From Patiria pectinifera (lineage: Eukaryota; Echinodermata; Asteroidea; Valvatida; Asterinidae): a stretch of DNA of 64,000 nucleotides. Positions 2,772-56,700 of the stretch are shown piece by piece (position 1 is the stretch's first letter; every line of letters starts with the position of its first letter). Below the pieces are notes generated by a model that was given only the letters and a program-made list of their open reading frames with translations, had not been told where the DNA came from and did not search any database. The translations under genes were made by a program, and so were the position numbers. Where the stretch lies: assembly GCA_029964075.1 (NCBI GenBank), contig CM057144.1:5851281-5915280 (forward strand). Reading direction: 5' to 3'.

Positions 2772-5700
2772 GTAAGGGGTGGGCGGGGCCTGGTAGGAAA
2801 AAGGGGGAGGACCTTATAGAGATCTCAGTTTATACATGTGTGCGTCACTTGTACATCATTCAGTACAACACTACTGCCTATATTCAACACCTTCCAAGTG
2901 TTGCTTTCATTAGTTGTTATGAGACTTGTAATAAGGTTGGCATGATGGAGGATCAAGAGTTTGGTGGTTGTGCCACATCTCTGATAGTCCTGCATTCTTT
3001 TGAAGATGGGCACAGCACGCTGTTTCTTATGTTAATTGTCAGGTGCCCAGTACATTGGATCATTAGCTCTGTGTGCACCTTTTATAGATAACCTGGTGAA
3101 GTTTCAGCTCGGTAGCCACTTTATAATTGGAGAAAAATGTAAATATATGCAAAAATATTTGGGTCTCTTGACTGGATGTCATTGATAGTGCGCATAAAAA
3201 AGTGTGGCTATGGGCACACTTTTTAACCCTGCGCAGCGTTTACAAAAAAACTTTGCAACAACTCGTCAACTGATGCCCTTTGGGCAGCAGATACTTTCCG
3301 CCATTACGCAAGACCCTATTCAATAGCAGTACAACAAAAAGCCACGTGCCAGACAGTGTCCAGACAGTTGCCAGACAGTGCGCTGGAAAGATAATTGACT
3401 GGCGGCTGTGGTATGCAGTTATGAAGGGAGATGACTGTGTCAAGTTACAGGTCTTTGTTGATGTTTCAATGAGACTTGGCAGGAGGACTGGTCGAAAGTT
3501 TGTTGACATGGCCTTGGTGAAGCCCTGGCTGCAAAGTTCATTGAACCAGCTAATTTGGCAAGGGTTGAGTGAGGATTAGATAGGAGGTGAACGTTATTGG
3601 CCCTAAAAAAAAAATTATTATTCCAAAAATTTGGTTACCTGGGGCCCCAAAGGGCAGCAGGTCACTCTGCGCAGGGTTAAAAACTACCTACAATGATTGT
3701 TTTCTTCGGATCAAAACCATTTCTGCTGAATAATTTCACACCTATCTTCACTTTGAAGGTAGTTTTTCTCATTAATTTTGAAAGGTACAATTCCAGGAAA
3801 TTACCCATGTTCCTACATGCCTTTAACCCAGTCTTCTCAAAACCAAACAACTGTAATAATACAGAGAAACATATCAGCCTGTTTCTAAATCCTCACTTTA
3901 ATAAGGCATTTCACGGTACTATGCGTCATCTTGCCCCCGGGGCAATTTTACACACGTTGCTGTGTACGCATCATCAATAAAACACTTTTGTGCTTCCACG
4001 TCATCATGTGTTCATTCCAAAATGCGCCTGCGTCTAGCAACGCGTGTTCTTTTTGCCCGGTGAACAAGATGGCACATATTACCGTAAAAAAACTTATTTA
4101 ATTGGAGTTGTCCCGTGATGTTAAAAAGTATTCAAAGTTATTATGCCACATTTTCCCTTTTTTTTCTTCAGCCAATTGGGATGGTTTCCATGACAACGAG
4201 ACTGGTATCTATGGCTACACCTGGTCCATTGGTTATGTTGTCTGTGATGATGATGTCAGCATGCACATTGATCCTCATGCTCATCTGTTTGATGAGTCAG
4301 AATGGACCCACGAGGGACTAGTTGTCAATGTCAACCTGCCCGGTAAATCGTCATCAGTGATCAAAGTATTATGCATTTTGCAATTGACCATGATATAGTG
4401 TACAACTATTGACCGCTTTGAGTGGTATAGTGAAACTTTTCCAAAGGGGGTCCAAATTGATCCTCGTGCTCATCTGTTTGATGAGTCAGTGTGGATCCAT
4501 GAGGGACTAGTTGTGAATGTCAACCTGCCAGGTAAATCTCCATCAATGATCAAAGTATTATGCATTGCTTAATTTACCATGGTACTGTACAACTATTAAT
4601 TGCTTTGACCATGATAGTATGCAACTATTGACTGCTTTGAGAAGAAAATTGAAACTATTTTCCCCAAGAGGTTCTAGCTAGTGTTCTTTATTGATCCCCT
4701 GATGAGTCAGAGTGGACCCACCAGGGTTCTGGATGTCAATGTCAATCTGCCAGGTTAATCTTCATCAAGGATTGACCATGATGGTAGTATGCAATTATTT
4801 GTGGTATAGTAAAATTACTTTCCCATTGTGTTCCATTGAGTGTTCTATATGGATCCCCATGCGCATCTGTTTGATGAGTCATAGTGGACCCACCAGGGTC
4901 TGGTTGTCAATGTTAATCTGTCAGGTAAATTGTTTAATTGACCATGATTGTATACAACTATTGACTTCTCTAGTGGTATAGTGAAACTATTTTCCCAAGG
5001 GCGTCCATTGAGTGGTCTGTATTGATCCCCACACTCATCTGTTTGATGAGTCGGAATGGACCCACCAGGGTCTGGTAGTAAATGTCAATCTATAGGTAAT
5101 ACTTCATTTAATGGTCAAGGTTTTACACATTTGCTAATTTTTTAGGATTAATCATGCCACAATATGTAAAAAGGCTTCAATAATTTGATTAATTGTTGGC
5201 CCAATTCTGTCTAAAAAAGTACTAATCTGTAGCAGATCCATATATAAAGGGTAACTAGATGCAGTGTTTTTTCCTGCATTTGTGTGTGTGTGTGTGTGTG
5301 GATACTATGTTGTCAATTTGAAGCGTACAGAGAATTTAGTTCCCTGAACCGAAATTTGCTTTATTGTATGCCTTTATTTTAGGAAATTTAGGATTTCTTC
5401 AGTTGCAAAAAATTAAGATTGACAAGATGGAAAGGGCTAATGCAAACTTTCATTGGAACTATCAATGCACAATCTAATTTTTGTTTCCATTTTGTCATTA
5501 GATGATGCATACTTCATTACTGTGCGTGCTCTCAACAAAGTAGAGTTTGGCGGTCCTATGGCTCTCACTGTGTGTCACACCACTCCTCTGATTGTTGACA
5601 ATTCTCCGCCCATCATTTACAGCATCGATGGCATCACCTATGACTCCTCCATTGGTAGAATTGGATTGCAGGTCAACGCAACGTAAGCAGTCAGATTTTT

Positions 5701-8700
5701 GGGGGCAAAAGTTTGTGTATTTGTTTTTAATCATAATTATACTGACAAGATTAAAAAGAGCTTTTACTCAAAACATTTTCAAATTAAAATTATTTGTCTT
5801 CATAGAACATATGCTGTAAAAGCCTCATATGAAATTTGTATCAAGCACTCATTTTCAAGAGAGATAGAGCCTGTGAGCTTTTTCATCTGAAAAAAATGAC
5901 AACCTTCTTCGGTTGGGACTCGAACCCTTGACCTCCAGGATACTAGTGCAAGTGTCTCAATCACATCTGAATGACTGAGTATGAGGTGCAGGGTTCACGT
6001 CCCACTAGAGGAGGCTTGTTTTTTCACAAGTTTCCAGGCAGCACTGAGTTGCTCAAACACTTATGTGGGTTTTTTAATTCTGTATAAGAAAAGCCCTGAC
6101 AGAGTTGTAATCGAGTCAATCACAAGTCAGTCACAATTCATCACAAGTCACTTCAAGTCATCAAGAGTCAATCACAAGTCAGTCACAAGTCAGTCACAAG
6201 TCAATAGTCAATCACAAGTCAGTCACAAGTCAATCACAAGTCAATCACAAGTCAGTCACAAGTATATCACAAGTCACCAAGAGTCAATCACAAGTCAACA
6301 CAAGTCAATCACAAGTCAATCACAAGTCAATCACAAGTCATCATGTTAAAGTCCATCACAAGTCATCCGGTCCCTAGTCAACTCACAAGCTATTTAAATG
6401 AACTGTGGTTCATCTCTTGTTATTTCTGACCTGAATTAACTCAATTAAAACTCTGGTCACTGATGTCAGAAGTTGTAATGTCAGGAGAAAGTATAAGGTG
6501 TGCACTATTGTAACATGGCCACGAAAGTTTTAAAAGTCAACATGTTTTTATCTACAGTTTGCCCTCTTTATGTCTAAAAAGAAAGTAGAATTATTGTATA
6601 GTTGCACACACACACATATACTCATTCAGAAGTTTTCACACATAATTGTATTTTGATAATGCCCAGCGATCCGGACTCTCATCTGTTTGAGTATCACCTA
6701 GCAGCAGGCAGGACACCCAGGGATAAATCACTGCGTGATTGGGAGGCTCACGTCTTGGCTGAACAGCTCTTCATGGACTTCAAGATACCCAACGGCATAC
6801 CCTGCTGGGTTAAAGTCAGAGCAGTCAACAACGGTAAATAAAGATTGGTCTTTTGGAAGTCGTATATCAAAAACCTAGAGTGGTATTTTGGCGAATGGTG
6901 GGCATCAAAAACCCTAATTGTCAGCAAAAAAATGACCTATTCTAAACACAAATTATCCATCCCTCCGATTGAAGAGATACCCAATGTGTGCAGAAGTATT
7001 AACTGTTTCCCATATTCTTCCTTTTCACAGTCGACCTAAGAACTATCGATCACGCGGATGAGCCCATTCTAGTTGATGACAGTCCACCCATCGCTGGCGA
7101 CCTGTTCGATGGACCCTATGCCGGGCGAGATCTGGTCTTTACCAAGGACAGGAATGAGGTGAGCTCTAAAAGTGTCCTCAAAATTGTATGTTTAATATGA
7201 GCTCATGATACATGGGCTGTTTAAGTGTGTTGAGAAGTGAAAACATTAACGCTTTGACTATGGAATTCACTGCCTACATTAGATAGGATTAAACACTGAG
7301 ATTGGAGGCGATATGGCTGCCAGCTGTCTCACTGACCATTTTTATATTGGCTCATTTTGTGCAAAGAGTAATAAGCCTCATGTGGTGGTCTAGCATTTTT
7401 GGCTCTGTACCTGTAAGGAATTAGGCACAAACGATTGATCTTGCTGTAAATCATCACTGACCACTGTGGCCAGAAGTGATATTGCAAGCACAGACAGCTA
7501 GCATCTTTAAACACCACCTGAAAATTGAAGGTTTTAAATCCGGATCATAAAGGTTGGTTGTAGAGCTTTCAAAAGATGATAGTCAATTTGTGGTGTTTAT
7601 ACACAATTTTAGAATTTCAGACAAAAAAAACCAGATTTTTAAAAAGTGTCATTTAAGAAGTGATGTTGCCGTACAATACTGGTATTTGATTCTATAAAAG
7701 AGAAGTTTCCTGACAAAAGGGTCAGCATAAGTTTAAATTACCAACAAGAAATTGATAAAACTGAATGGTATTAAACTGAATGGTAAACTTGTATAATTTG
7801 AATATAGCTTTCAACTTGATGGGGTTGTTTATTTGTTAAGTTCTTTCAAGGTTTCATTCTTTTCCTTGCTTTGTTGGTTAGATCTGTGCCAACTGGCACA
7901 ATTGGTATGACCCTGAGTCTGGGATCTTCTCCTACCTGTGGGCGGTAGGGACCCAGCCTGGCCTGAGTAATGTGGTGGACTTTATTGAAGTGTCTCGTCA
8001 TGAGCACAGCGCATGTTCTGGCTATGTGACCCTACAGCACGGGGAGACGTACTACTCAATGCTGGTAGCCTTCCATGGTGGATATGATAAACTCAACGTG
8101 TCGGCTTCTTCGGATGGAGGTATTTATTGACATTTTATTAAATTTGTGTGCGTCTCAGGAATGAGGATGATCTGTTCCAACTTCTGCCTTCCACTTGACT
8201 TAGCATTAAACAAGGATAGTAATCATTGTGGTTAAGTTAATAGTCGCCATGAAAATTGTTCTTGTCATTACTAGTTACATTGATTGCCAAATCCATTATC
8301 ATTATTATATTATCATAAACAAGTAATCTTACTCTACCATTAATTGACTGTTTCGGCAACTTGCGGAAATAGCCTTTGTTTAAAGTTAAGATTTTTTTTA
8401 AATCATTTTTTTCCCCGCAGACTCCTGTCGTAGCTTTGTACGCATTTTCATCGCGCATTGCACTTTGAGCACATACATGTACCGTACATCCATGTGATTG
8501 CTTTTATACTTGGCACACACATAGACCAGCACCTGCAGATGTGTACTGAACATTGATGTCATCATGACATCATCACGTGTTACATGACATCACATAAATG
8601 GTGCATATTTTGAAGGTCTATATTTTATAATACAGAACTATCATTCCGATTTGGTTATAACCTGGTATGTACCTAAACCGAGATATTGTTATAGATTAAA

Positions 8701-11700: not shown

Positions 11701-14700
11701 TTGAGGAATATCTTATAACAATTTTAACGTGCCTCCCCAATTCCGAGAAAATTGCACCTGAAACAGTGTAAAGTTGTTTTTTACCACTCTGTAGTACTAC
11801 TACTGTGTCTGTATGTCTTATTTGTAGCCATGTACCTTTTTAGTCATATTTTTTTTCTCATTTTCTGGCCATTGATTATTTCGTCTTGCAGTATTGTGTA
11901 ACACTACATTATTTGCTTTTTGTGCATTTGAAGCAACAAAAATGCTCAAAGTCTTAAGTAGGGCGCATTACAACTGACTTGTTCAAATTTCAACTCAGTT
12001 GATGCCATACGTTTTTAGAAAACAGAGAAATGTTGGGTCTTGTAAGTTGATTCCATTCGCTCTTTTCACACTTCCGCCATGGGCATGCAGAGCCTCCATC
12101 TGGCAACTTTACACAATAAATATAGCCGGTTCAGTGATTCCCGTGTCGGGGCTCAGATCACTGAACCGGCTATTTTTATTGTGTAAAGTTGCCAGATCGA
12201 GGCTCTGCATGCCCAATGGCTGAGTGTGAAAAGAGCGAATTGATAGCACTTCCCACTCCAAAGTTACCATGTATCATATGTTGAATTGCACCTTCTTGTG
12301 TACAATCCCCAAATCAGTACTCGGGACATGACTCTCATTATTTGAGCCAGTTAATAGTGTAGGTGACGTCAAGGTCACAGTTGACGGGTGATCTTTGCAG
12401 TATCTAACGAATATCGTAAACATTTATAAAAGTGTGCCCAAATGCAAACATTTTTAAACCACCTTCAATAGTTGTTTTCTTTGAAACAGTACTAAGTCAA
12501 GCGGAACAATTTGGGTATTTGGTAATAGTCCTTGCCTTACTTTCAGCAAAGGTTTTCTCATTAAATCGGTAGGTTCATTTCTGGGTTGTTAATAATACCA
12601 ATGGTCCTACGTTTGCTTAAAAGTGTATCAATGGAGCAGGTTGTTTGCAGATTACAGGATGGATTCTTGCACATTGCTGGTCATTCCATTGACCAGATTT
12701 TTTTAGCAACGCGCAGTCCTGGTTGTTGCCATTACTAGGTTCACCATCCTCCCAGTTTCTGTACTTCACATCAGTAGTGCCGTCCTGACACACCCATGAA
12801 CCTAAAGGACACACAGAATGTTCAGATTGTTTTCAGTCGTCAAAAAGGTTTTTCAACAACTAAGTTGACTGATTAAAAGTCTGTTAAGTTGTAATCTTAG
12901 TTGGCATGGAAAAGGATAATTTGGAATGATTAATGATCAGTTCCATATTTTTTTTTTTTATTTCTACGAACGTTGTCACTTTCCAACTTTAACAATGGGT
13001 CATATGAGCTCACTGATCATGATCAAATTGTTTCCAAAAAAAGTAACTTGATCTACTTTTTCAAATGATCTCACTTTTACTAACCTTCACTTTCTCGGTC
13101 GCTGCAGTCAATCCAAAATGAGGGGGTCAGCTTGGTCTGAAGGAACTCAGTTTCCTCCTGAGACTGTGACATGACCAAGACACTTCCCATCTTGATGCAC
13201 TCCTGTTTTGCCTCAGCCCATTGTAGTTTGTCGCTGAGTTTTCGATAGCATTTGTCACCCCACTGGCTCCAAGCAGGAGGACACGCCCCTCTAATGGAGG
13301 CCGCACACCTCTCATTGCCACCAGTGCATCTGATCATAAGACAAAGGCTTATCAAGCCAACAAGGAGACGTTTAGGCAACATCTTTTTCAGATGTTACCA
13401 GATCGGTGTCTGGTGGTGAAATGAAGGGTAGTGTCCTCAATCATGGATTGCAGTAGTGCGCTTGATGACGATGCTGCAAATTTATTCTGCCCCAATGGAA
13501 TTTTCTAATTGGACTTGTGAGCAAGCCCTTGCTGTGTGCTTATTGAACACGTATCTGATATATATTTACCGGAATTGCCATGGTGATCACGATTTCATCT
13601 TCACGCTTGGCACATCTGATCAAAAATATTAGCTTATTAGAAAGAGAAGGCTGACTAAAGCATCAGTCCATAAAATGTGTTTTAGTTCTCCATGAATGGA
13701 TATTCATGGTTGGAATATACAACTCCTCACAAGCATGACAAGGGTCATTGTCTCAACTCCTCGTAAGGGTAATATATTTGGGGCTACTTTGTTCCTGTCC
13801 CTGTTACATCTGACATCTAGGATTTTACAATTGTGGACACACTCTTAACGAAGTTTTTCTCAAAGAGTGATTATAAATAGCAAACTACCTACCAAATAAA
13901 ACAATCATTTGAAGTCATTCTTAATGAAAGTTGGATGGCAAAATGCAAAGTACCAAGTTAACAGGGACAGGAGAAATGTCTCACTTTGGTACCTTACCTT
14001 ATAGAATGACCAATAAATCATTGTACTGGTGCAAGAGATTTCATCTCAGACTTTGTTAACACAAATAAAGCAATGATCACATAAAAGAGAAGAACTCTTG
14101 GCATTGATGAATTTAGTGTCAACTCACCCCAACTTGTTTGGATGCGTGTTTCCTGCACTGTTCTTCCGCACGGCGGCTGGCCAACGTTGTCTCGACTACC
14201 GCAAGATAGAACGGGCGATAGTTCCACAAGTGTGTATGTACAAACATTCACATAGTTACTGACGGACGGACTATGACGACGAGTACTAAATAACTACTGG
14301 AAAACTTGAAATTGATGAAGAATGACGATGATGAAAACTGGCAAACTTGGCACTTCTAAAATACGTAAGCTCGACGATAAGACGTAAGAAAAAGGGAACG
14401 TGCTCATAAACCAACGAAAAGTCTATGGTGGAACACATAGTATGACGAAATGTTGACAGGTCAAATTTGGCGCGGGGGTGGTCACCACAATTCAGCAAAA
14501 AATAACTGTAACATTATATTGTGCATTTAGAATTTAACATACAAAGATGATCAACTCCACACAAAAAAGACATTAATCAAAAAATAAAATGATGTATTTA
14601 AAGATGATATAACAGGAGACTGGTCGCTGATAATGGCAAAAGCCAAAATTTCCTTAGTAGCAATGCCAGTTAATGCATTGAGTTCATGTTACAAAGTTAA

Positions 14701-17700
14701 CACTGCAACAGTGACAGAACTAATCTGGTTTAAAACGAAAGTGAGAAAAAGACTTGAGAAACTACTGCCAGGACCTACGGATCTAGACTTCTCCTCAATT
14801 ATTGTTATCTGGATCATATATTGATATTTTGATATCTTCTGTCTCCTCAGTGACTGTAGATCTGACTTTACCGCTACTAGGCGGTGTCTATGACGGCCTG
14901 CTGCCAGGACCTATAGATCTAGACATCTCAATTGTTGTTATCTGGATCATATATTGATATTGTGACATCTTCTATCTCTTCATGTGACTGTGGATCTGAC
15001 TCCAATGCTACAAGGCAGTGTCTATCACAGCCTACTGCCAGGACCTACATATCTAGACTTCTCCTCAAATATTGTTACCTGGATCATTGTTATTGTGATA
15101 TCTTCTATCTCCTCAGTGACTGTGGATCTGACTCCACCACTACAAGACAGTGCATGTCTACGACGGCCTGCTGCCAGGACCTTCAGAATACAGATTTAGA
15201 CTTCCCCTCATTTTTTGTTATCTGGATCATATATTGATTTTTTGATATCTTCTATCTCCTCAGTGACTGTGGATCTGACTCCACCACTACAAGGCAGTGT
15301 CTATGACGGCCTGCTGCCTGGACCTACTGATTTAGAATTCTCCTCAAAGCCGGCCACTGTGGAGGCTCAGTGGCAAGGATTCTCTGATCCTGACTCTGGT
15401 ATCGATGACTACCAGGTTACAGTCTATCGCAAGCATGTTGGCAGGTGAAGTTGTATTGGTTGAAACTTTGACTTTATACGTTTGTGATATGCTTGCATTA
15501 GTCTCTACATGTATCTGATTGTTTTTGATCTGATAGAGATTTAGAGCTGATTGACTCAAGTAATCCAAATTAATGGAAGTGTAAATGTTTGTTCATTTGA
15601 TTTAATATGGTTATTAGAAAAGATATTGCAGTAGTCATCAATTTTTTTAGGTATGAATAATCTTTTTTGAATACAATGGTTAGCTCTAATGACACCAATG
15701 ACTTTGAGGTCATCCATGAGGCAGAGGCAGTAGGCAGTGAGACAGCCTCCATTGAGTGGCATCACTTCCATCTCCATCACAAGGATCAGGTCTATGTCAA
15801 CCTGCGCACCATCAACCAAGCACTGAATCACATTGATACTCCAACGGATGGGTTCTTGGTAGACCTGACCCCTCCGATGCTGAGAACTCTTGGAGACGGA
15901 CTGGTGGTGGGTGAAGATGCTGACTTCCAGGTGAGTTTACATCATCTTGTAAGTAGGAGTGTTGATACTCCTAAGAATGGGTTTGTGGTAGTCCTGACTC
16001 CTCCCATGCTGAGAACCTTGGGAGGCTGGTGGTGGGTCAAGATGCTGACCTACAGGTGAGTTAACATCATCTTGTAAGTAGGAGCATTGATACTCCTAAT
16101 GGGTTCTTGGGGGAGCTGACTCCTCCGATGCTGAGAATTCTTGGAGATGGGCTGGTGGTGGGTCAAGATACTGATTTCCAGGTGAGTTATAATCATCTTG
16201 TAAGTAGGAGCATTAATTGATACTCCTAATGGGTTCTTGGGGGAGCTGACTCCTCCGATGCTGAGAACTCTTGGAGATGGGCTGGTGGTGGGTGAAGATG
16301 CTGACTTCCAGGTGAGTTAACATCATCGTCAGGAATTGAGTGAAATTGATACTCCCAATAATGGGTTCTTGGAACACCTGACTCCTCCAATGCTGAGAAC
16401 CTTGGGCTGAGAACCTTAGTATCACATTGATACTAAGGACTGCTAATAAGTTCTTGGTAGATCTGACTCTGCCGATACTGTGAACTCCAGGAGGTGGGCT
16501 GGTGGTGGTCAGGTGAGTTAACATCTTTATGTAGATCATTGTGGAGTGCCGTGGCCTCGTGGTCTGGAGCATTGAATTTGTGGTCTGCGGGTAATTCTGC
16601 AGATTGTGGGTTTGAGTCCCGCATGGTGCTGTAGTGCTTGTGCCCTTGGGCAAGGTACTTTGTCACTCATTGCTTCTCTCCACCCAGGAGTAAATGGGTA
16701 CATGTGAGGGCAGATATGGTTATTGTGGTTGATTTTAGCTGCTTTGTGCCAAAATGGCAGCATCAAGATATATACTCCCCTGGGAGCTGAGATGGTATTT
16801 GGAATGTTTCATTGGCCCAAATGAGCAGGGTAATAATGATGTAGCGCCTTGAGCACCAATACTGGTCGATACGTGCACTTTATAAATACGCATTATTATT
16901 ATCAAGCACTGAGTGATACTGATACCCCTATAGCAGTGGGTTGTTGGTAGACTTGACTGCCCCAATGCTACAAAGCTTTGGAGATGGGCTGGTGTTGGGT
17001 TAAGATGCTGACATCCAGGTGAGTTAAAATGATCAGATTCAGCTGCAAAATGACATTAATATTGGGACGAACAGGTTCTTGGTAGACCTGACCCCTGCAA
17101 ACTTTTGGAGATCGGCTGGTGGTGGGTTAAGACGCTTACTCTAAAGGTGAGTTAAAAAGCATCATGTTGGTTACACCCTCAGTGGCACTGAAACTCTCAG
17201 CTCACTAATGGGCTCTTGGTAGATCAGATCCCCACACCTGGAAGCACCTGATGCTGACTTCCTGGTGAGTTAGACCTTAACCCTCCAGTATTAAATACGA
17301 TTCTGAACTCTGTCCATGAACCTTCTAATGATGTTCAACATTATAAAATATGGTTGGATTCTATCATTTTTGCCCTGTCAGTTTTAAGCACATTAACTGA
17401 GACAGAGGCTGGTGTTGAATTTGAACTGTCTCATCATTGTCTAATAAGGAAATGTACAGTGAGAGAATTCATGTCTAATGTCTTGTTTTCTACATGCAGG
17501 CGAATTTCGACAATCTCTCTGTGCATTGGGACTACTTTGACGATGAGTCTGGCATTGAATCCTTTGAGTTGGCCATATACGAGATGCGACAAGGGAAAAA
17601 AATCAAGATCTTTCCCGCAGGTGAGATAAGGAAAATTAGTGTTAAGCTGTGAGATAATGTTTCAAAGAAAAGTTGTAAATCTTACACATGGTCTGATTTG

Positions 17701-41700: not shown

Positions 41701-44700
41701 AGATTAAGTTTCAAAGAACAAAATTAAATTACCTTCTCTCAAATCAAGAAAATTAACACTTCTACATGAAATCCCAAAATACAATACAATGAATTATAAA
41801 TAAATTAAGGGGATACCGGTATCCATAACGAAAGAGGGGTGTGATGAGGGGCGTGGACGGAGCGGTGTGTCGGCTTGAGATCCTTGAGATCAGAAGCATG
41901 CCTCATAAATGTGTTACTGTATATCATAATGAAAAGTAGCACACATCTGCTGGACCAGAGGTTTCTACACAAGCTCTAATAAGGAAAACAGACCAAAAGG
42001 AAGCCCATTTTCCCCACTAAAACCTTATATTTTCAGAACGGATCGTTGCACAAATGCTAAAAGTTCTTCTTCTGGCTTAAAGTCTATGTATGTTTTGCTT
42101 GGAAAAGTAAAAACAAGTATGATCACTTTTTTTCTTAAAAATGAAGGGTATATGGAGAGGAGCAGAAAATGACCCCTTTTGAGAGATGTCTTACCAGTTG
42201 TTTAATCAACATATCTCAACAACCGAACGTCGAGGTGCAGTACAGTGGGGGAGTGGTTTTGTAAAGAGAATGAAATTTCCTTTTGATTCATGTAAAGCTC
42301 ATTTTGATTGGTTACAAACCCAGTTGTCATTTTTTTTGTCAAAGTTTTCCTCCAATAACTGGATTTCTTAATACAGAGGTCATGAGCCACGTGACCTAAG
42401 CCCGCATTGCATGTTTGGGTTAATTGCGGGCAGTGTGTGGGAGTTCTATCACACAAATTGATCATTTGCACATTTCGGGCCAAAACTTTTCATTATATGT
42501 GGTGAAAGATTCATTTTTGATGTGTTTTTTGTTTGACAGTCCAATCCTACTTAGGCAACGGCAAATCAGTGATTGCCTCCTCCAATGGTTTTTACATCGA
42601 CGACACCCCAGCAGAGCTGGACATATTTTTCTACACTGACTCCAACTTCAATGAGTTTGAGCCCACATCATACCAGTCCTCAGCCTCCATCATTCAAGTC
42701 TTGTGGAGCTTCCTCGACATGGAGAGTGGCGTAAAGGTAGAACAAAAATTCTCTGTGATAAATTATCACAGTAACGCGGTATCGAGGAAGGGATTATCTT
42801 TGAATTCAGGATTTCTGTGATAAATTATCACGGTAACGCGGTATCGAGGAAGGGATTATCTTTGAATTCCAGATTTCTGTGATAAATTATCACGGTAACG
42901 CGGTATCGAGGAATGGATTTTCTTTGAATTCAGGATTTCTGCGATAAATTATCACAGTAACACGGTATCGAGGAAGGGATTATCTTCGAATTCCAGATTT
43001 CTGTGATAAATTATCACGGTAACGCGGTATCGAGGAAGGAATTATCTTTGAATTTCGGATTTCTGTGATAAATTATCACGGTAAAGCTGTATCGGGGAAG
43101 GTAATTCAAGCTTCCGTAGTTTCCCTTTGAGATCTGTGAGTCTTAGCCCAAAACAGATGGTCACAGTTACAAAGATTAGGAAATGAATGATGTGCCAACT
43201 GGCACTGGAAAACTTTGACTTTCAGGAGCATTACTGGGCCATAGGAACCTCCAGAGGGACCACAGACCTGCAGGACTTTGTCAACGTTGGGCTAAACCAG
43301 ACAGCAACTAGCATTGATCTGACTGGATTACTGCATCACAACACTACGTACTATGCGACTCTGAAAGCAATCAATGGAGCAGGCTTGGAAACCATAGTGG
43401 AATGTGATGGTAGGTAGAGATAGACTGACATACAGACAAACACACAGACAATGTTACAGTGATGTTACAGGAATACTGCATCACATCACTACTTACTATG
43501 TGACTCTGAAGGCTATCAAAGGAGCAGGCTTATATGGTAAAATGTGATGGTAGGTAGAGATAGACTGACGTACAGACAAACAAACAGACGACATGACATA
43601 GATCTGATGAGCAATGGTATCAAAACAGACTGCACAATATGTGACTTGAACATTGGCTGCTTTCTCAGGTGTAACTGTTCTACTGGAACAGCCTGCTACA
43701 GATGACGTCAACACCACCTCCATGTTCAGCGAGAAGTTTAAGGAGGAAGTTTACCCACCCGATGTGGAGAAGAGCGCCGACCCAACCAAGACTGGGACCT
43801 CCTGGTCTAAATCCAAGGATAAATCTGTGGCGCGCTATGGTACGACTTTTGCAAAATGTGTTGCTCTGTCAAATGATTTAGTCACATTGATTTGTTTGGG
43901 GAAGAGAGTGATTCTTTTTACTTTTTTTTTGGGACCGAATTTGACAACCAAGATATTACTTCATTGCCCACTTTGACACAAATCATCGCAGGATCAGTAA
44001 GTTGAACTGTTGCTCCTTTGACCATGTTGTAGGCAATCAGTGCATACGTTTCCCGTCACCAATGAGAAAGACAGACAGATGTAATGAACACTTGAATGTC
44101 ATTGCCACCATGTGAAGGCAATCCTGGTTTTGGACATTTGAAATGCACATTAGTTGTATCCCTACTACAGCCGCTTTAAGCCAGCCCGACCCAGCCTAAT
44201 GATTGTCTTAATACTTAGACCACGTCATTGCAATGGTGTAGACCAACTGACAGCCAGAGCTTTAAGATTGTCTTATTATGCATGTTAAGAGCAGTTATTG
44301 CAATCTGCCCCAGATGAAAATTTACTAGTGATGAAAATTAGTCTCATCACCCTATGCTTGCGAATCTGTACATGCACTCACTGTGTCCCTCACACTGGAA
44401 CTCTCATGATAGTCACCCAACCCCATCTACAGTTCATAGAGATCATATCATTTAATTAACTGTGACCATCCATGCCCCTTCTACCCCCAGAGTACTGCGT
44501 GAGTAGCTCCGCCAACCTCCTAGATGACATCGTTCCCTGCATGGTGGTTGGAGGCAACTCCTCTGGCTCCGTGGCCATCGAGAACGGATTGATTATCATA
44601 CGAGCCGGGGACCGGGAGGAGAGATACAACCTGGATGACTTCCAGATACCCAAGGACACCACCCAGATAATTGACATCCCACCAAAGTTCAACATGGAAC

Positions 44701-47700
44701 CTGGCAAGTAAGTGTATACAGGCAGTGTGTCAAGTTATTTGATTTTTACCTTACCATTCGTGGAGAGGGTATTTTGTAGACATATATCCTCTGCTGAACC
44801 ATCACTACCATGGCCAACATTAATAATTGCCTTCTTTGAAATAATCCCTGTTGATTGCATTCACATTAATTCTCTTTTTAATGCACAGGAGTCTCCATTC
44901 TTGGTTGAAGGTGTGCAATGAGGCCAAACTCTGTGTGACAACACCAGCAGGAACAAGCACTATACTGGGTCAGTATATCGTTTAGGATGAGAACCTATAG
45001 ATCAGTGTGATGAACCAGCATGACTCTATAACTAATAGACTTCCAGACTGCAGCCAGACAAAGTTCACTTGTTTAATTGGTCATTTATACTGGCAACTTT
45101 GAATGTCGGTATATGAAGGGTTTATTTCAAAAATGTGATATATCCATTTGACAAAAAGAGAGCAAAATCTGGCCGTTTATCAAAGTTTAAAGAATAAAAG
45201 CAGTATAACAACTTTTTCTAAACTTGATTTTTCGTTTTATTGTCTTCCGATATTGTGGGCTACCACGAGAGAGCAGGATTCGAAGAGATAATAAAGAGGC
45301 GTTTATTGCATTTTAGAAATAAAGTCTTCACATGTACTTCTTGTAAAGGCTGCAATTTACAATTTTGTTTGGTATTGCTCTCTACTCTATCCAGAGGACA
45401 GTGATATGATGATGACGTCCCCCAATGGTACAGACCTCGTCCTGAAATCACCGACAGGTCAGAGGAGGAGAAAGAGGGATATAGGCAACCACTTTGATTT
45501 CACTGTGGCTACAAAGGGAGGTAGGTACAAATCATGTTATATGCAATGCTTGTTGGCCGCGTACCATCCATGAGGATTGTGCCACCGCGCCTTGGTTCTC
45601 TTGTTTCCGGCGTGTCCGTCCCTCCTTGTATCACTTCTTCTCTGCCACAGCTGTCCCCTCGTGGACCGCTTTTCGCCATGCTCCTCTCTCAGTAATTAGC
45701 TTCTCCATCTCTATCTGCCAGTGTTGCAGGTCGTCCCGCACGCAGTCTTGGAAATGTGGTCTTCCTTGAGCTCGGGCTCAAGAAGAGGGTTCTGTTGAGA
45801 AGAAGGTCCTGTGGCATCCTACAGACATGTCCGAACCATCTGAGTCGGCATGCACTGTGAGGATGGTGTGCTCGCTCGCACATTGAGTGCACCTCCGCAT
45901 TTGACACTCGATCCGACCACTTGAACACCCAGGATCCTCCTCAGGTTGCACAGGTGGAAAACTTTTGAGCCTGGTGATCTGCGCAGCAAAAGCCGACCAG
46001 GCCTCGGACACATACAGCAGTGTAGACAGAACACACGCATTGTAGACTGCGATCTTTGTCTTCAGCCTAAGCTTCTTGTTTTTGTACACGAACCTCCTGA
46101 GTTGTCCAAAGCAGTCCGCAACTTGTCCAATGCATCTGTTAAATAAGGTCCGCCTTCATGCTGGCCATACTTGAAATGAAGGACCCGAGGTAGCAGAACT
46201 CATCCACCACTGCTACCATCTTCCCGTTTGCTCAGAACACTTGAGGTGTTGCCTGGCTCTCCACTTCCTGACACATGAGGACTATCTTTGACTCACTGAT
46301 CATGAGTCCAAAAATGGCACAGGAGGAAGTTAAACGATCCAGCAGGGTCTGAAGATTGGCTGCTGAGTGAGTAATGAACGTGACATTGTCAACAAACAGG
46401 AGGTGCGTGACAGGGAGCGAGACACCTTAGTTTTGGCTCGGAAACGCTGCACATTGAAAAGCCCGTCATAAAAGCGAGTGTGCAAGTAGACTCTTAGAAT
46501 GTTGCCGTCCAAAGCATGGTGTGGATATTGTAGAGACATGTTGAAGAGACATGGCGCCATCACACAGCCCTGCTTTACTTAGCATCTGACAGAGAAACTG
46601 TCCGACACATCACCATCGAAAGAGACGCAGGCTTCCATCCCGTCATGAAATGACTAGACAATCTTGAGCAACGTTGGTGGGCTGCCAATATTCTCCGGCA
46701 CTCTGTACAACCTGGCTCGGCTTACCATGTCGAAGGCTTTTGTGAGATCCACGAATGCGGTGTAAAGGTTCACAAGCTTCTCCCTGTATTTCTCTTGCAG
46801 CTGTCGAAGGGTAAACACCTTGTCAATCAATGACCTTCTTGATCTAAAACCGCACTGACTCTCCGTGTAGATTAGCTCACCCAGAACTTGAAGCCTCTTG
46901 AGCTCTATAGCCTAGCCACGGCATTCCCGAACACGTTCAGCAAGGAGATCCCGCGATAGTTGTTACAGTCTGATTTGTCCCCTTTGTTCTTGTACAACTG
47001 CATAAACTGAGCATCCTTGAGACACTTTAGGCATATGCCCACATTTCCAGTAGCTGACGACCGAGTGATGGAGTTGTAGCAGGGTAAGGCTGTCCTGTAC
47101 AGCCAAGACCTTGGAAATTTCTGCTGGTATGCCGTTGGTAACCGTAGCTTTGGAGAGTTCGCTGATGGACCTCAAGAGTTCCTCCACAGTAGGAACGGAG
47201 TCCAATTCAGACAGACAGAACAGGTACAGAGCAGCGTAGTGTTCTGTCCACCGTTTGAGCTGCTGATCTGTGTCAGTGAGGAGATTTCCCTGAAGAACTC
47301 TCAGCGGTGCTACCTTCCTTCTGGTTGGTCCAGCTTTTATGCCGTCTTAGGCTTAGCTTCCGTCACTGGCTGGTTTAAATACAGGCCAGCCGGTAGCTCG
47401 GCCGGTTAGTTTAATCCTCTTCAAACCGGTTGAGCAACCGGCTAGACTCTGGCAGAGGCACCCACCCACTATACGCGATCTATTGTATTCATGTCTGTTA
47501 ATTGCAGGTCCAGCATCTTGTACCCAACAATGAAGGTTATTCAATCTGCTAAATCCTCCACAGGCAACTAAAGGCCTCATTGTGCGTGACTGCTATCAAT
47601 TAACCGGCCACTTTACTCTGGAGTCAGTTACAGTTTAATGGTTATGATGATTAATTCGGGTTTTCTGCTTTGTTCTCAAACTCAGCTGATAAAAATGCAT

Positions 47701-50700
47701 AAAAAAAGCAACCCTTAAATTCAGAGAGCTTAAACGTCACACTGCTGTGTGTATCTTTTGCCATCAACTTTAGTTAGAGTCTGGAAGCTTGTTTACGGCA
47801 TGTTTACACAATATACACTAATCTGCTTAGAACCCTTTGTTCAACTCTGGAGGCTGGCAGGCTGCATACCAGTAGGTTTTAGTTGAGTGACGTTGAAGTG
47901 CCAACGAGATACTGGAGCAAGGCCGGCCTTGTACTGGCAGAGAGGAGCAAAGATACCGGCCAGGATCATACCGGCCTCAAAGCGGCCGGCCTAGGCTGGC
48001 CGGTACTTAAACTGGCAAGTGATGGAAGCTAAACGTTACATCTCATGGAGGTTTCCAGTGTCTGCCGCAACCTGGATCTTCTCGCATAGATCCAGCCGGT
48101 ACTGGTTTGCATACTTCAGGGTTTCGCTCTGCAGGTTCTGCTGGGCAGACCTGAGTCTGGTAAGATTTGAGTGAGTTGGCACCTCTCTGTACTTGAGTAG
48201 GGCTTCCCGTTTCTCCTCCATGAGCAGTAGCAGGTCATCCGTAAACCAGTCCTTCCCTCTTCCTGGTTGGGTTCCAAAGTGCTTCAGGGCCTGCAAATGC
48301 ACAGCTGAATTGATGTCCTCCCACTCCTCTCCGCCAGCCTAACTAACTCCTTCAGGAAACCGTTGACCTTCTCTTGGTCCTTCACCCCTCCCAGTCAAAC
48401 CGCTTGCGTCCAACCTGCTGCGACTTGTGCAATTTCAATGTCCAAATCTTGCAGAAGACAAGGCAGTGGTCAGTATCCACATCAGCAGAACGGATTGCTC
48501 TCCTGTGGAGAACAGTGCCGTGATTTGGGTGCTGCAAGGTGGTCTTCTGCAAGATCTGTCTGGCGAAGTAGGTGTTAGTCATGCACAGACGATGGGCCAT
48601 ACGAAATCTCCCAGACACGTTGACCATTTCTGTTCATTTTGCCGACACTCTGTTTACCAAGGCAGTCGGGCCAGTTGCCGCAGTCTTTTCAACTCTGGCA
48701 TTGAAGTCCCCCAGCACCAGTAGTGAATCCTGTGCTCGAATGCCGTGCTCTTCCTCCAGTACATGTAGAAGCTGTCCATCACACTCTCATCTGCCTGCAA
48801 AGTTGGCGCATCTACACTGCAGAGCACGGACAGGTATCTGCTTTCTGTGTGAATCTGGATCCTCATCAACCGCGGAGAAACGCCCACAGGGGTATCCACG
48901 TACTTCTGTATGGAGTTCTTGACCACAAAACTAACATCGTGCTCTTGAGCTTCCGTTTCAGCCTTACCATTCAAAAAGAATGTGTAGTCATTCTCTGTGA
49001 TGCTGCATGTCTCCAACCATCTGGTCTCCAACAGCACCACAATGTCCATATTCAGCTGAGTGAGTTCGTAATTGAGAAAAACTGTCTTCCTAGGTTTAAA
49101 ATCACAATCCGAAAGTCCGGTTAAGGGTTTGTATATTCCAAGAGCCGATCCGAAGAAAAGAGTCAGTTGTGCCAGGAAAGAAGAGGTGGGGTTGACTGTT
49201 TGACCCTTCTTTTATCGGGTCCTCCACAGATTGTGAAGAACAGGCCACCCGTAAATAATGGAAGCTAAGCCTTACATCTCGCAGAGGTTTCCAGTGTCTG
49301 CTGCAACCTGGATTTTCTCACATAGATCAGACATACTTCGGGGTAACCCTTTGCAGGTTCTGCTGGGCAGTCCTGAGTCTGGTGAGATTTGATTTGAGAT
49401 TTAAATTCGCAATCCGAAAGTCCGGTTAAGGGTTTGTAGGGCCTATATTCCAAGAGCCGATCCAAAGAAAGGAGTTGGTTGTACCAGGAAAGAAGAGGTG
49501 GGGTTGACTGTTTGGCCCTTCTTTCATCGGGCCCTCCACGGATTGTGACGAGCAGGACACCCGTAAATACGGCTGCTCGGTCGCTGCAGCAGGACACAAA
49601 GTCCTCCTATACCCCGCTTGGAGTGACGACGGCCATCACACTGCAACCTTTGGTGCAGACACCTGGGCAACATAGAGAACACATGCTTGCCCAGAACGAT
49701 GTGTTCCCCTAAGGACCAAGTCGGTGAATTCAGGGGCAGACGAAGAAGATCATGTACCTTTTTTGCTGAGTTTGCTCTCAGACAGGTCTTATTTTTCTTT
49801 CTCCGACAGGTCTTATTTTTCTTCCTCCTCACCCTGCCGAAGCTGGGTGGTGGAGCCGGCTTAGTTGCGGACCAACCAACCGCGAACAGGTTGTACAGGA
49901 TTACACTGCTTACCAGTAGCAGGAATCAGTGTTGTAGGACTCGGACTCGGGACTCGGACTCGAGTCCGGACTCGAGTCCTTTTTTCAAGGACTCGGACTT
50001 GGACTCGAGTCCTTTGCTCAAGGACTCGGACTCGGACTCGGACCCCAAGGACTCGAGGACTCGGCTTCGAGTCCGGCTCGAGTCCGGCAAAATCGGGTCT
50101 TTTTTAGGTGTTTTATTTCAATTATTTTATGTCTTTCACCTTGATTTGGTTTTGCTGTGGAACCGAATTCCGCAGTTCTGCCGCTCGCAAAAATAACTTG
50201 CCAATTGATCAATGATCATATATTACAGAAGACTTTTTCAGTTTCTTTTAGTCTTTACATATTTTGTAGACTTGATCTGTGGCTCTGCCTTCTGTTGATA
50301 GTTTGTTTAACAGTTATGCTATTTACAAGTTTTTTAACCTTTACTGTAAGAAAGGGAAATAAAGAAAAGCAACAAATGTGACGAATAATTACTGAAGATC
50401 ATATGCTAATTGTAATTGTCACTTTACTGTAGTATCTGCGTCAATATCTGTAGGCTTCTACGCATACTAAGGTAAAAGTTAATGCAAGGTTTTTTTTAAT
50501 GTACATTATAGACATAATGAATGCATTGCATAGTACATACAGCCAAAACCATTACCCCTTCTCTATCACCTGACATTTGATAGTGACATTTGGAAAACGT
50601 TAATATAGTATTGGTGAACCGCGACTTGAATTTGATACATATATAAGGACTCGGACTCGGACTCGAGTCCTTTTTTCAAGGACTCGGACTCGGACTCGGA

Positions 50701-53700
50701 CTCGGACATCAAAAATTGACAAGGACTCGGACTCGGACTCGAGTCCTTTGCTCAAGGACTCGGACTCGGACTCGGACTCGGATGAGGAGGACTCGACTAC
50801 AACACTGGCAGGAATACCTCAGCCTGTGAAGCAAAACTACGACCTGACCCCCAATACACAATGCAATACAGAATCTAGTATTAGCCAAAGAAGTAGACAA
50901 TGTGACCACTTTGTTTTTCCTTGTTGATGTTTGTACTTCTGACCTGTTTGTTTCAATCCAGATTATGTGATCCAGCGCCGTGGGAAACGTACAGGACTAC
51001 TCTCACACGTTTAGCTCTTTAGGGCGCACAAAACATTGTCTACTTCGTATTTTGTAGGCAGAAGGGCTATATTCAGGCGCGGATCCGGGTGGGGGGTCAA
51101 ACAAGGTGTCAGTTTGTGGCGCGTCAGCGACGAAATAAACCAGCCTATGTGTGCTAGAACACCTGCTTTTTGCAGGCTGTTTTTCTTTCCTAATTGTTAT
51201 ACAGACATTACTTTATGGACTTGCGTGAACGCTTTGTGAACATGTTTGAGAGACCAGTGGATCAAGACACATCCAGTGCATCCCTGTGGTGTCCCTATCA
51301 GTCTGTCTATTTAACTATTGAGCAGGTATAATTGTGCAAGAATCCTTAAATGAATGGACTGCTGAATAATTGAAGACTGAACTCCAAACTTGACTTGTGT
51401 ATTGCAGGTCTACCCCAGGGTGGTTCACTCATCCTAGGCCTGCTGGATGTCAACAGAACCAACCAGGAATTCACATCGGACGCTCCCCTCGAGTATACAC
51501 CCTACATCACTAATCCCCTGAACACCATCCAGTACACATCCAGACTGCTTAGGCACAGGTTGGTCTGACTGCCATTTGAAGAGTTTCATTCAAAAACACA
51601 ATGAACCTCATTTTGGTGCCTTTTAGAATCCTGCCCTACCTGATTCCCCAAAGTCAGTTTTGATGGGTGTTTCAAGAATAAAATAACGTACTTGCATGAA
51701 AAACAATACATTGTGTATTTTCTAAATGTTTTCATAACTGTAAATTTGCTTCTTTTTTTTCAAATGGAGATATCACATTTTGGAATTAAACTCATTTAAA
51801 AATAATTATTATGCATGAACAGTATGGTACTTGTTTACTGATTTTGTGGAATCAGTACATTCAGGAATAGTATGGTACTGTGTAACTACTTGCTAAGAGC
51901 CATAAGCAGAGGCTACAGTGCATGCTTGCACATATGATTCAAACATGCTTATAACAGCCAGCTCAAATTTGGGTGTTAAGTGAACTTGATGTCAAGCCAA
52001 ATTGCAGTGAAATGAAATGTGTTCAATTTTTGAAGGATTTGCATTACAAAAACCTTGCTTTGACATCTCCGCACGAAATCACATTCATTTTTGCTTAAAA
52101 TCAAACCAGCCATTTTAGTGTGGATTCCGGAGGAATACACGCAATTACATGGATGTGGATCATCCCGTTTCATCTTTGTAGAGGTTCTCCGCACACAATT
52201 GGAATGGCATTCAAGTATCCAATATCTCTCTGAACTGTTGAGGGTACTTGGTTACTGATTTTGTGGAATCAGTATATTCAAATTAATATTTTGGGGATGC
52301 ACTAACATAAATGTCAACTGCTTCAAACTGCTCCGAAGCGTGTGTACGTGTATTTCCTGAAGGACGGCTGGCTGTCATTGTCTCGACGACTGTAAGGCAG
52401 AACTGGTGGTATCTCCGCAAATGCGAAAGTAGAAATGTTACTGACGGACGGACTATGACGACGAGTTAAATATAACTTCTCGAAAACTGTACGAATTTAT
52501 GAAGAACAACGACGACGAAAGGGCAAACTCTGAATTCCCGAAAAATGTGAGTTATAATAGGGACGTCTAGCTTCTGTACGTGTCCTGTAACCAAAAAAAG
52601 GTCTATGGTAGAACAAGCAATATGTACAGGTACCAGCGATTCGCGAAAGTGTGACAGTGATTGGCCCTGTCGCGACACGTGACAAATGTTTACAGGTCAA
52701 AGTTCACATGGGGGTAGTCACCACAATAATGTTGAAATGTTCTGCATTCTAGTTTGAACAAATTTGTCAAACTGCTTGGGCAAAGAAAATTGACTATTGA
52801 TCTGAGACAAAAACACATTGAAATTGAAACAAAGAACAATATTGTGAATTTATGTGAGGTGTAGTCTACATGGATCGAAAAGAAAAGGAAACACAGAAAG
52901 TAAAAGGCAACGAGATCGTCACATCATGAACATGATGAAGCATTTCAACATTAGAAAAAATGCGCATGATTGATTTTCCTTGAAATCGGTTGAGTTTGTT
53001 TTCCACATGTCTTTATTTGAACACGAATAGTTTTAAATCCCTTTTAAAAATCAAACCAATACTTACCAGGGATAAAGTGAAGATTCCAAGCTTTAAAATT
53101 CTATAAAAATAATAGGGATACGTGTTTTTGCAGCAATACTATAGAGCCTCACAAAAAATTGATGCGGGCATTTTGGGACGCTCTATAGTTCTGCAGTTTC
53201 CTGAAGACAGACAAAGCACACTGTTTCACTTGTTTGATTATAAACCAGTTCTTTTTATTACCACACAGACTCCCAACAGAGATTTGCGCACATTGCATTG
53301 TTGCAAATAAATGACTTACTGTTTTTCTGCTGCATTCTATAGGGTACGCTTTGTCTATGAACCAACATTCTACATCACCAGTCTTGGGCAGACAGAGCTG
53401 CGTGGACCATTGGTCATCAGTCTCACTCTCAGCTCATTGGGCAACTGGACAGACACAAAGGCTAGACTGATCTACTGGGATGTTGGTAAGAAACTGCTGT
53501 ATACAAGAATACAACAAATAAGTGATTCCTTTTGGGGTATCATGTCTACAAAATTGGAAAATAACTTTCATTTTGAAATACATTTTTAATACAAATAAAA
53601 CAATGGTTCCACCACTAAAACAGGCTATTCTTGAGTGAACATGATGTGCACATATCAAGTAAAAGTTTATCCAAAGCATTCCAAATTTGTTTCCTTTGGA

Positions 53701-56700
53701 GAGCAGTGTGGATTCTCAATTTGATCAGCCTGTGCTCTTCTTGAAATGTCCCAACTTTTCTACTTACCTCCGTTAAGGGTGCAAATGTGTGAACAAAAAC
53801 ATGTCACAGCTGTAATACTTTTTGCGTAGTTAATGCTGAATGGCATAGCTGTAATATTTTGTTTGTGTAGATAACGCTGAATGGCGAGATGCAGCCAAGA
53901 CATGCAGTGAAGTGGATAAGATAACTTACACTGACGATGGAGCACAGGTCAACATTGAGGTAATTCCTTTAACCAATTCATGCCGGGATTATTTTGACAA
54001 GAATGAAACGAAGCGCGGGATTACTTTTCATTCGACCTCAAGCCAGGCGGGTTGAAGCCATCACCCTAAGGCAGACCTGCCAATTAGAACGATTCTGCCG
54101 TATTTTGTACGGGAATTTGTTAAAAATACGACTGTACGTTTTTCCCCCATAAAATACGGGTTATGACCAATTTGAAACGCCTGAAAAAATCCTAGTTCAA
54201 AGCGGTTGTGAGTGTAGATTTCTGCCGGATAAAATGGCTGAAACAACGTAAATTGCAAGCAGCCAAGCAACGATGTGCTGCATGCAAAAACTGAATCTGG
54301 TTTCGCGATTCCCAGTGTTCGATGTACATTATGTACAAAGTATCACAAACTAGAACCAGTCCATTCCCGGAGTGCCGATACTTCAAGCAGCGGCACCCCG
54401 CCGCAAAAATAAACACGGTCTGTATTCGTACACACATACAATGTACCAGTAGGAGTACGTACGGCAAATCTTACGTGCAGTGAACAGCCTTTTTTTGTCT
54501 CAGTGAACGCACAATACACAGAATACACTTTGACGTTCTTGTACGATAGTCACTATGTGCGTGCACGTGGTGTTCCGTTATGTCAAACATTTTTGAATAG
54601 TAAAGTTTGATACTACGTTCTGAAATGAATTCAAAAATCAGAAAAATCAACAGTAAAAGCAGGCAGCCCAAACCGAACCAGGTAAATCAGCCAGCAAATG
54701 CAAGAATTTTTTTTTTTTTCGGGCAGGCCAAGTTTAAAATAAAACTCTGTTAGATCGCTGTGTATTTTTTTAAACATTCAGTGCGTACACGTGAATTATG
54801 ATTCAAGAATCAAACTGGCACTTGGCGGTGACGTGATAAAACATGAATAAGTTTAGATTATACTTGGAAGTCATATGAATGTTTCACCTGCGTTATAGGT
54901 TTATTTATTTCAAACATGAGGAAGTCTAGTCTTTAGTTTATGTTTAAGTAGACTTGCATTGAATAGTTTTTAAAGCAGTTTGTTTATGAATAAGGTATAT
55001 GATCAATATCCTTATTCATGCAAATTGATTGAGTATACCACTCGCAGGGAGACCTCTGGTAAATTTTTTTTATAACTTTAATTAAGATTATTAAAAATTG
55101 CAGCCACATTTATTTGTTCGTATACTTGTAGCCCGTCTATGCATATTTTTGAAAAGTACAGTTTTTAAAGAAAAATACAACTTTTGGAGATTCAGAATAC
55201 AGTTTTTCGATCCCAAAGGTTGGCAGGTCTGCTCAGGCAGTACACTCATATTTCCAGCCTCGCTTGCTGCCAGCGGGTCGCTGACAAATATTTCCGACCT
55301 CACTCCCTGCATGTTTATCTGTCATCCGTTCCAAATATCACACAACTTTTGCATGTATACACGACCTCTGGCACAAACCGGTTAAAGGCACATAGAATCA
55401 TTCGTGTTTATCCCAAAAGTAACCTACCGGAATATTATTTTTTTTAAAGTTCACTTGGATTAAAGATCGTGCTGGTACTACAAACACCCTGTGAAATTAT
55501 TCCGTGTGGCTTGATGTCATTTAGCAGAAATCTAATGTAGGTGATTTTCAAAGACCAGTCAATTGACAGATTTTTAGAAGAGTGCTATGGACAAAATCGT
55601 GTTCTGTGATCAATAGGTGGTGCACAGTTTATTACCATTTCCTCAAAAACTCATATTTCCACTCAGCTGAAACTTCAACAGGTTCATTTCTGAACATTTT
55701 TTCCTTGGATTTTGAGAGGTGTTATTATCGGAACAAATGCAAGAAGTGTAAACGATCCAGTATGTTTTGTTTGTGTTTATGATGTAGCAGATGTAGAAAC
55801 ACCAAATAAGATAATCTGTTCATGGTTCCACCAGACCATAAATTCATTTACTATTTGGACTTTTTATGTGACAAAGCAATGTGTGTTCTTCTCAGGTTTG
55901 TTCTACGAGGTCTCCATCAGTCTCATCACCCTCAGAGGCGACACGCAAGCGACGCCAGGGATCAGACCCACCCTTCTTCAGCCGTGAGACCCATTTTGCA
56001 CTGGCTCAGGTCACTACTGCCATCCCCAATAACCCGCCGGAAATCTCAGATCTGCCTGAATACTTCTACATGAATGAGGATCAAGGTTTGTCTATATGCG
56101 TAGCCTTCATTAGGTAGAGTAGAATAGTAGATAATTTGCAGCTATCCAAAAAGTAACCGACAAAATCATTGTTGAAAAGAGTACTTGTTTTACAGATAGT
56201 AATTAATGGCAATAAACTCCCTGTGAAATTATTCTTTCTGGCATGCTGTCATTTTGAAGAAAACAATAGTTTCCAAGATGTGTCAAGTGAGGCATCTTTG
56301 GAAACGTCCGTTACAAGTTGGTTTGTAATTCGGTAAGTCTGTAAACGGGTGCGTGCAAGTGTTGACACGACGCAAACGCGCCCGCGGTCGTTATTATTCG
56401 TCAGTTTTGTGCGTCACATTGCGTAGCTGCAAATGGGTGAATGAGATTGTGTCCTAGATGCCGATTTCGGGCGCAATTCAAAACGTGACTTGGCAGCTTC
56501 TTGCAATATACAGCATTATATACATATCACTGAGCTAAAACTTCATCAGGCTATTAGCACCGATAGATTTGGACCCTTTTATTGCTTCAACCCCCAAAAA
56601 AATGAACAAATGGCGAATGATCTACCCGATCTTTAAATAATAATACATTTATTGCTGGTTAATTATATGCGTGAACACTCCTTTATTTGAAGTGAACTTT

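Follow-up and report, generated by a model that had tools for sequence, protein, structure and literature searches.

Six tandem arrays of decayed splice-edge copies, probably mirage minisatellites, in one gene of Patiria pectinifera

The 64-kb window analyzed here (Patiria pectinifera assembly GCA_029964075.1, contig CM057144.1, positions 5,851,281 to 5,915,280; all coordinates below are those of the window) is animal-like DNA of 41.6% G+C with one large gene on the + strand, in which six exon edges, each with its splice site, are accompanied in the adjoining intron by decayed tandem copies of themselves. Judged by their anatomy, these arrays are of a named, apparently little-studied kind, the mirage minisatellites. 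The account that we prefer, at a probability of about 0.72, is that they are exon edges that were copied serially and later decayed, by-products without a function. Relative to the mirages already known, the gene would add a density of six per gene, an enrichment at junctions within the gene, a relative date from an inserted repeat, and a signal in codon positions.

The host gene was modeled with a splice-aware dynamic-programming gene finder, whose 67 proposed exons were reduced by hand to 50. The 17 removed comprise five copies from the arrays of exons 9 and 25, one exon at a repeat resembling a short interspersed nuclear element (SINE), eight that fall on retroelement remnants or GGACTC repeats at 45.7-50.9 kb, and three that were weak and isolated. 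All 100 exon edges, each represented by at most 60 bases of exon and 15 of intron, were compared by Smith-Waterman alignment with up to 2.5 kb of the neighboring intron. Among them, the left edge of exon 9 was placed at 15713 for convenience and does not represent a genuine acceptor (the phase-compatible candidate at 15684 is weak). Six edges were positive, on the donor side those of exons 3, 9, and 36 (scores 108, 135, and 82) and on the acceptor side those of exons 8, 25, and 42 (123, 102, and 33). The controls, like all controls in this analysis, were drawn from within the window, and they reached 24 when the introns were reverse-complemented and compared with the same edges, and 30 in 2,000 comparisons with random 1-kb pieces from elsewhere. 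Five matches are thus far over the controls and that of exon 42 slightly over; the exon 42 copy is directly adjacent to its edge and, falling below the threshold of the copy-by-copy search, was seen by the edge scan and by Tandem Repeats Finder. When a seventh case was sought among the 100 edges, the best candidate, the donor of exon 27, scored 27 (16 bp, 581 bp off), within the control range.

Tandem Repeats Finder recovered all six arrays, its row for exon 3 covering the distal copies alone, with units of 172 (exon 3), 130 (exon 9), 145 (exon 36), 133 (exon 8), 126 (exon 25), and 41 bp (exon 42). Beside the functional edges we counted 20 copies: four at exon 3, eight at exon 9 (one truncated), one at exon 36, three each at exons 8 and 25, and one at exon 42. 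The same six junctions had been named in an earlier note on this DNA (its exon 43 is our exon 42), and its estimate of one to seven copies per junction was nearly right, the count being one to eight with the truncated exon 9 copy included. Its unit range of 41 to about 150 bp broadly holds, with 41-172 bp measured here, and its remark that donor arrays follow the exon while acceptor arrays precede it is true, yet a consequence of geometry. In the following list, functional units rest on the gene model and copy alignment, and decayed copies on copy alignment, except where another source is given.

816-61463, + strand: host gene as modeled, 50 exons, gene ends provisional (dynamic-programming model with hand curation, Pfam)
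4264-4452, + strand: exon 3 donor, functional unit, with the exon end at 4342 and the donor
4453-5140, + strand: exon 3 donor array, four decayed copies, GT kept in 4 of 4
14762-15187, + strand: exon 8 acceptor array, three decayed copies, AG kept in 2 of 3
15190-15348, + strand: exon 8 acceptor, functional unit, exon start 15264
15824-15965, + strand: exon 9 donor, functional unit, exon end 15930, CAG/GTGAGTTT
15963-16533, + strand: exon 9 donor array, proximal copies d1-d5, of which d4 is truncated and lacks a donor
16560-16902, + strand: SINE-like dispersed repeat inside the exon 9 array (window self-comparison)
16905-17280, + strand: exon 9 donor array, distal part (d6-d8), at 19-24% divergence from the functional copy, GTGAGTT in all
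33895-34271, + strand: exon 25 acceptor array, three 126-bp copies, AG kept in 3 of 3
33982-34020, 34108-34146, and 34234-34272: 39-bp in-frame pseudo-exons of the exon 25 array, acceptor good, donor weak (called as exons by the gene finder)
34272-34405, + strand: exon 25 acceptor, functional unit, exon start 34361
43312-43456, + strand: exon 36 donor, functional unit, exon end 43409
43457-43589, + strand: exon 36 donor array, one copy, donor identical, exon part frameshifted
53795-53841, + strand: exon 42 acceptor array, one copy, period 41 bp, AG kept (Tandem Repeats Finder, edge scan)
53842-53885, + strand: exon 42 acceptor, functional unit, exon start 53871 (Tandem Repeats Finder, model)

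The exon 9 array, which extends from 15.8 to 17.3 kb, is split by the dispersed repeat, and because that repeat sits between array copies, the array is probably older than the insertion. The repeat has a second copy at 59064-59394, 78% identical to the first, and from its look we take it to be SINE-like; a motif of it had no match when compared with viral contigs. Shorter matches to it lie on the minus strand near 25.6 and 22.7 kb.

No named class of such arrays was known to the earlier note, which was wrong on this point, as mirages have been published for lancelet Adh3, globin, and PGBD5 genes. What follows on them draws on parts of the two papers cited. The mirage minisatellites of lancelet Adh3 have units of 10-72 bp and show somatic instability (Canestro et al. 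2002 as cited in PMC3087553), while those of the Branchiostoma floridae globin genes BflGb6 and BflGb9 have units of 150-160 bp on the donor and acceptor sides, with BflGb6 copies 81-100% identical and many of the copies carrying AG/GT (Ebner et al., PMC3087553). Two further loci are cited there, by the reference list retinol dehydrogenase and presenilin, and troponin C is mentioned in PMC3902484, where lancelet PGBD5 is described with two splice-site arrays (60 and 108 bp) of imperfect copies that involve both types of site. The anatomy reported in these accounts is that of the arrays described here. The repeat unit includes the adjacent exon boundary at 6 of 100 edges, both boundary types are involved, and unit lengths are similar, those of 41, 126, 130, 133, and 145 bp lying within the published 10-160 bp and that of exon 3, at about 172 bp, being slightly over. 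Many but not all copies carry AG or GT (18 of 19, the 20th copy being truncated).

In the parts of the papers drawn on, mirages come from a handful of lancelet genes. Against the 10-72 bp units of Adh3, those here measure 41-172 bp and form six arrays in one gene; the globin mirages, as described in PMC3087553, occur as one array per gene, whereas three donor-side and three acceptor-side arrays share a single gene here, and the copies are more decayed, down to 76% identity to the functional copy. PGBD5 shares several arrays in one gene, imperfect copies, and both site types, although it has two arrays in place of six, and the parts of its account drawn on here hold no enrichment or codon-position test, both of which were made in this analysis. 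Six mirages in one gene looks unusually rich; among the openly licensed papers listed, no genome-wide mirage count was evident. One partial exception to units that hold a single exon edge is offered by the 39-bp pseudo-exons before exon 25, which, from their sequence, could be usable as cassette micro-exons.

Two other known routes to duplicated splice signals were considered and set aside. In the Rogers model (cited in PMC3087553), introns are gained by tandem duplication of proto-splice sites, so that a new intron arises within an exon. The likeness lies in a short tandem duplication that copies splice signals; the difference is that an existing junction is spanned here and no new intron was seen, as every one of the six arrays sits next to a modeled junction, with the rest of the exon on the far side. 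Tandem exon duplication, with mutually exclusive exons, would copy an entire exon in frame, both splice sites included, and does not fit units that hold one exon edge only, with a frameshift or stop in the exon-derived part of 11 of 20 copies.

That the arrays gather at junctions can be put in numbers within the gene. After overlapping rows were merged, and one row past the last exon was excluded, the 28 Tandem Repeats Finder rows gave seven arrays with units of at least 41 bp and 14 others within the gene. A junction is spanned by six of these seven; the exception is as follows.

42752-43106, + strand: 62 bp x 5.6, the lone long-unit array off the junctions, in intron 35, starting 16 bp after the end of exon 35 at 42736 (Tandem Repeats Finder)

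Under a null model in which units of the same length were placed randomly, with purely exonic and multi-junction placements set aside, the chance of spanning a junction is 7-26% per array, and at least six of seven would be reached with P=1.8e-4, a post hoc figure for a gene picked for its arrays, and one that the hand curation of the exon set shifts slightly. The enrichment was P=0.004 with the odds doubled for easier detection, P=0.002 without the weakest array, and P=0.0008 with exons 8 and 9 treated as one case. Of the 14 other arrays in the gene, none covers a junction, though most are short-unit and one (4576-4640) is contained in the exon 3 array. The enrichment within the gene thus supports a process that recurs at exon edges, as the earlier note had suggested. 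More tentatively, and with the odds against it, junctions might be a preferred recurrent source of tandem duplication, with the functional edge as a master copy that would repeatedly send copies outward into the intron, and the array as a time series of past edges.

Evidence on the history of the copies comes from codon positions. Between the functional copy and the decoys, differences fall at 54 of 483 first, 42 of 480 second, and 114 of 476 third positions, and the minimum changes among the decoys themselves number 37 of 100, 32 of 99, and 54 of 98 (P=0.003). Since descent within an intron should ignore codon position, this third-position excess among decoys argues against plain decoy-from-decoy descent. 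Columns with shared variants show the same order (7/95, 5/95, and 15/94; P=0.016), as do exonic changes found in the functional copy alone (0/95, 0/95, and 4/94; P=0.011), beside 6/228 in the intron. In three of four arrays, identity to the functional copy drops the farther a copy lies from the exon (P=0.008). A near-repeat, CATTGATCTGA in the exon and CATAGATCTGA in the intron beyond the copy, marks the two ends of the exon 36 array (P=0.013, uncorrected) and suggests that this copy arose by duplication between short direct repeats. Overall, the pattern speaks, short of proof, for a functional, constrained edge that was copied again and again at different times, with decay of each copy afterwards. 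Coding constraint on the decoys themselves was also considered, and is a poor fit with their frameshifts.

The decoys differ from one another by 4-31%, and in the exon 8 array an insertion destroys one AG. Splicing at a decoy instead of the functional site, the exon body being retained, would bring an in-frame stop in 17 of the 18 usable cases and a frameshift in the remaining one. Scored with a frequency table, the decoy site equals or exceeds the functional site in 10 of 18 cases and is lower in eight, including all four of exons 25 and 42. At exons 3, 8, 9, and 36, at least one decoy equals or beats the used site, and for that reason site strength alone cannot set the choice there. Exon definition is an established principle of splice-site choice, and it is the likely explanation for the choice of the proximal site.

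A mechanism along these lines would begin with the tandem duplication of a segment of 41-172 bp that straddles an existing exon-intron junction. Duplication from exon into intron, or the reverse, would leave one intact edge on the exon body and turn the extras intronic; exon definition would presumably keep splicing at the exon-proximal site, so that the duplication is tolerated. The functional edge may then be recopied now and then by slippage or unequal exchange, each new copy being a record of the edge at its time that would afterwards decay as non-coding DNA. Mirages have themselves been proposed as a route to new introns (Ebner et al., PMC3087553).

Several observations weigh against serial copying followed by mere decay. 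Changes private to the decoys lean to third positions too (28/95, 27/95, and 38/94; P=0.06), and the contrast between shared and decoy-private changes, which is the key prediction if copies are snapshots of the edge, points the expected way without reaching significance (P=0.19). The third-position bias is weaker without CpG columns (P=0.023 and 0.048), the exon 8 array runs opposite to it, and the exon 3 array lacks the gradient with distance. In pooled decoy pairs, intronic columns differ at 139/1000 against 177/953, 175/935, and 258/929 at the three codon positions, a lower intronic difference that the simple model does not predict and that trimming of local alignments may explain. Among the three arrays whose end repeats were tested, exon 36 included, those of exons 25 and 42 were not significant (P=0.33 and 0.94). 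Nor are two features of the decoy sites quite predicted by decay: GT or AG is kept in 18 of the 19 decoys that cover the site, against 14.2 expected (P=0.03, copies treated as independent), and GTGAGTT is kept by 7 of 7 exon 9 decoys at 9-24% divergence. 

Once four looser arrays off the junctions are added, namely, three near-tandem pairs (27466, 49092, and 51816) and the GGACTC repeats, the enrichment weakens to P=0.028; two of those pairs have further matches in the window and hence may be dispersed repeats. This weaker figure, together with the choice of the gene for its look, lends some weight to a possible though clearly less probable alternative, in which the arrays are ordinary intronic minisatellites without any junction bias, those touching exons being easier to spot through a copy that selection holds. 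The exons are dense enough that a 130-bp unit placed at random would have a chance of about 21% of covering a junction, and a constrained copy would slow the divergence from its copies and so aid detection. The enrichment, however, persists under the doubled odds, the removal of the weakest array, and the merging of exons 8 and 9, and no other array in the gene lies on a junction, though these are mostly short-unit. We consider it unlikely that the decoys are instead kept by selection, whether as spare binding sites for U1 or U2AF or as poison sites leading to nonsense-mediated decay. The retention of GT, AG, and the exon 9 motif would suit such a role, as would the strength of more than half of the scored decoys, the stop that nearly every use would bring, and the three pseudo-exons as possible cassettes. 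Yet the excess conservation of the splice core over other windows was not significant across all arrays (P=0.09, insertions ignored), being strong at exon 9 and less than in the remainder at exons 3 and 42, the eight weaker sites include every one at exons 25 and 42, and the mirages of Adh, TnC, and globins are reported, in the parts of PMC3087553 and PMC3902484 drawn on, not to disturb splicing. Of the selection for splice choice that the earlier note had proposed, the retention of splice dinucleotides stands in favor, while the 11 disrupted copies and the core test stand against. From these comparisons, conservation of the decoy splice sites is at best weak, the sites are probably neutral by-products, and a function is unlikely.

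The other source proposed in that note, unequal exchange between repeated FN3-type exons as the seed of the copies, is hardly credible. Parts of the gene do match Pfam fn3, but among DNA matches between the 50 exons the best-scoring is 24 bp at 87.5% and the longest listed is 33 bp at 79%; comparison of the window with itself pairs each array with its own neighboring exon edge and with no other exon, and the arrays of exons 3 and 42 lie in parts of the protein without an fn3 match. An assembly artefact, from misassembled haplotypes or repeated contig ends, is very improbable as well. The draft-genome version of one globin mirage does appear to be aberrantly assembled (Ebner et al., PMC3087553, in the part drawn on), but decoys 4-31% apart, with a dispersed repeat between copies, are not duplicated reads, even if the copy number could be wrong.

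The encoded protein combines fibronectin III-like with cadherin-like or Big_9 modules in the parts scanned against Pfam. The fn3 match has E=2.5e-10 for the whole part, without any single stretch passing alone; Big_9 matches at 1.5e-10 and Cadherin_4 at 1.5e-6, with the end of exon 20 and exons 21-22 outside the scan. Near the C-terminus lies a hydrophobic segment that, judged by its sequence, is transmembrane-like, and where a match to Pfam TM_ErbB1 is below the cut-off. Three phase breaks are left in the model (exons 8/9, 38/39, and 48/49). Scans of the window with Rfam and for tRNAs returned no matches.

The window holds further elements. Intron 7, 7.1 kb long, contains two pieces of a C-type lectin gene at 12617-13394 on the minus strand (Pfam Lectin_C, E=5.6e-9 and 9.6e-7), and a reverse-transcriptase-like piece occupies 46654-46911 on the minus strand of intron 39, where open frames are broken (Pfam RVT_1, E=1.2e-6, just under the curated cut-off). 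Most of the 62-bp units in the intron 35 array contain an inverted repeat, GTGATAAATTATCAC, with 7-bp arms, at least one with a substitution. Tandem Repeats Finder also reports GGACTC hexamer arrays at 49937-50795 and an 11-bp AGTCAATCACA array at 6114-6340. A dispersed repeat pair, 26216-26538 and 35931-36225, is 80% identical, with more fragments near 27.5-27.7 kb.

If the host is not a lancelet, as its assignment to Patiria pectinifera has it, the mirage phenomenon would reach another animal lineage. A gene with six arrays lets one ask whether splice junctions are hot spots of tandem duplication, and it also bears on how the spliceosome ignores near-identical decoys about a hundred bases off. 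Should the arrays be serial snapshots, they would hold dated copies of coding sequence within introns, and would offer natural intermediates for models of intron gain.

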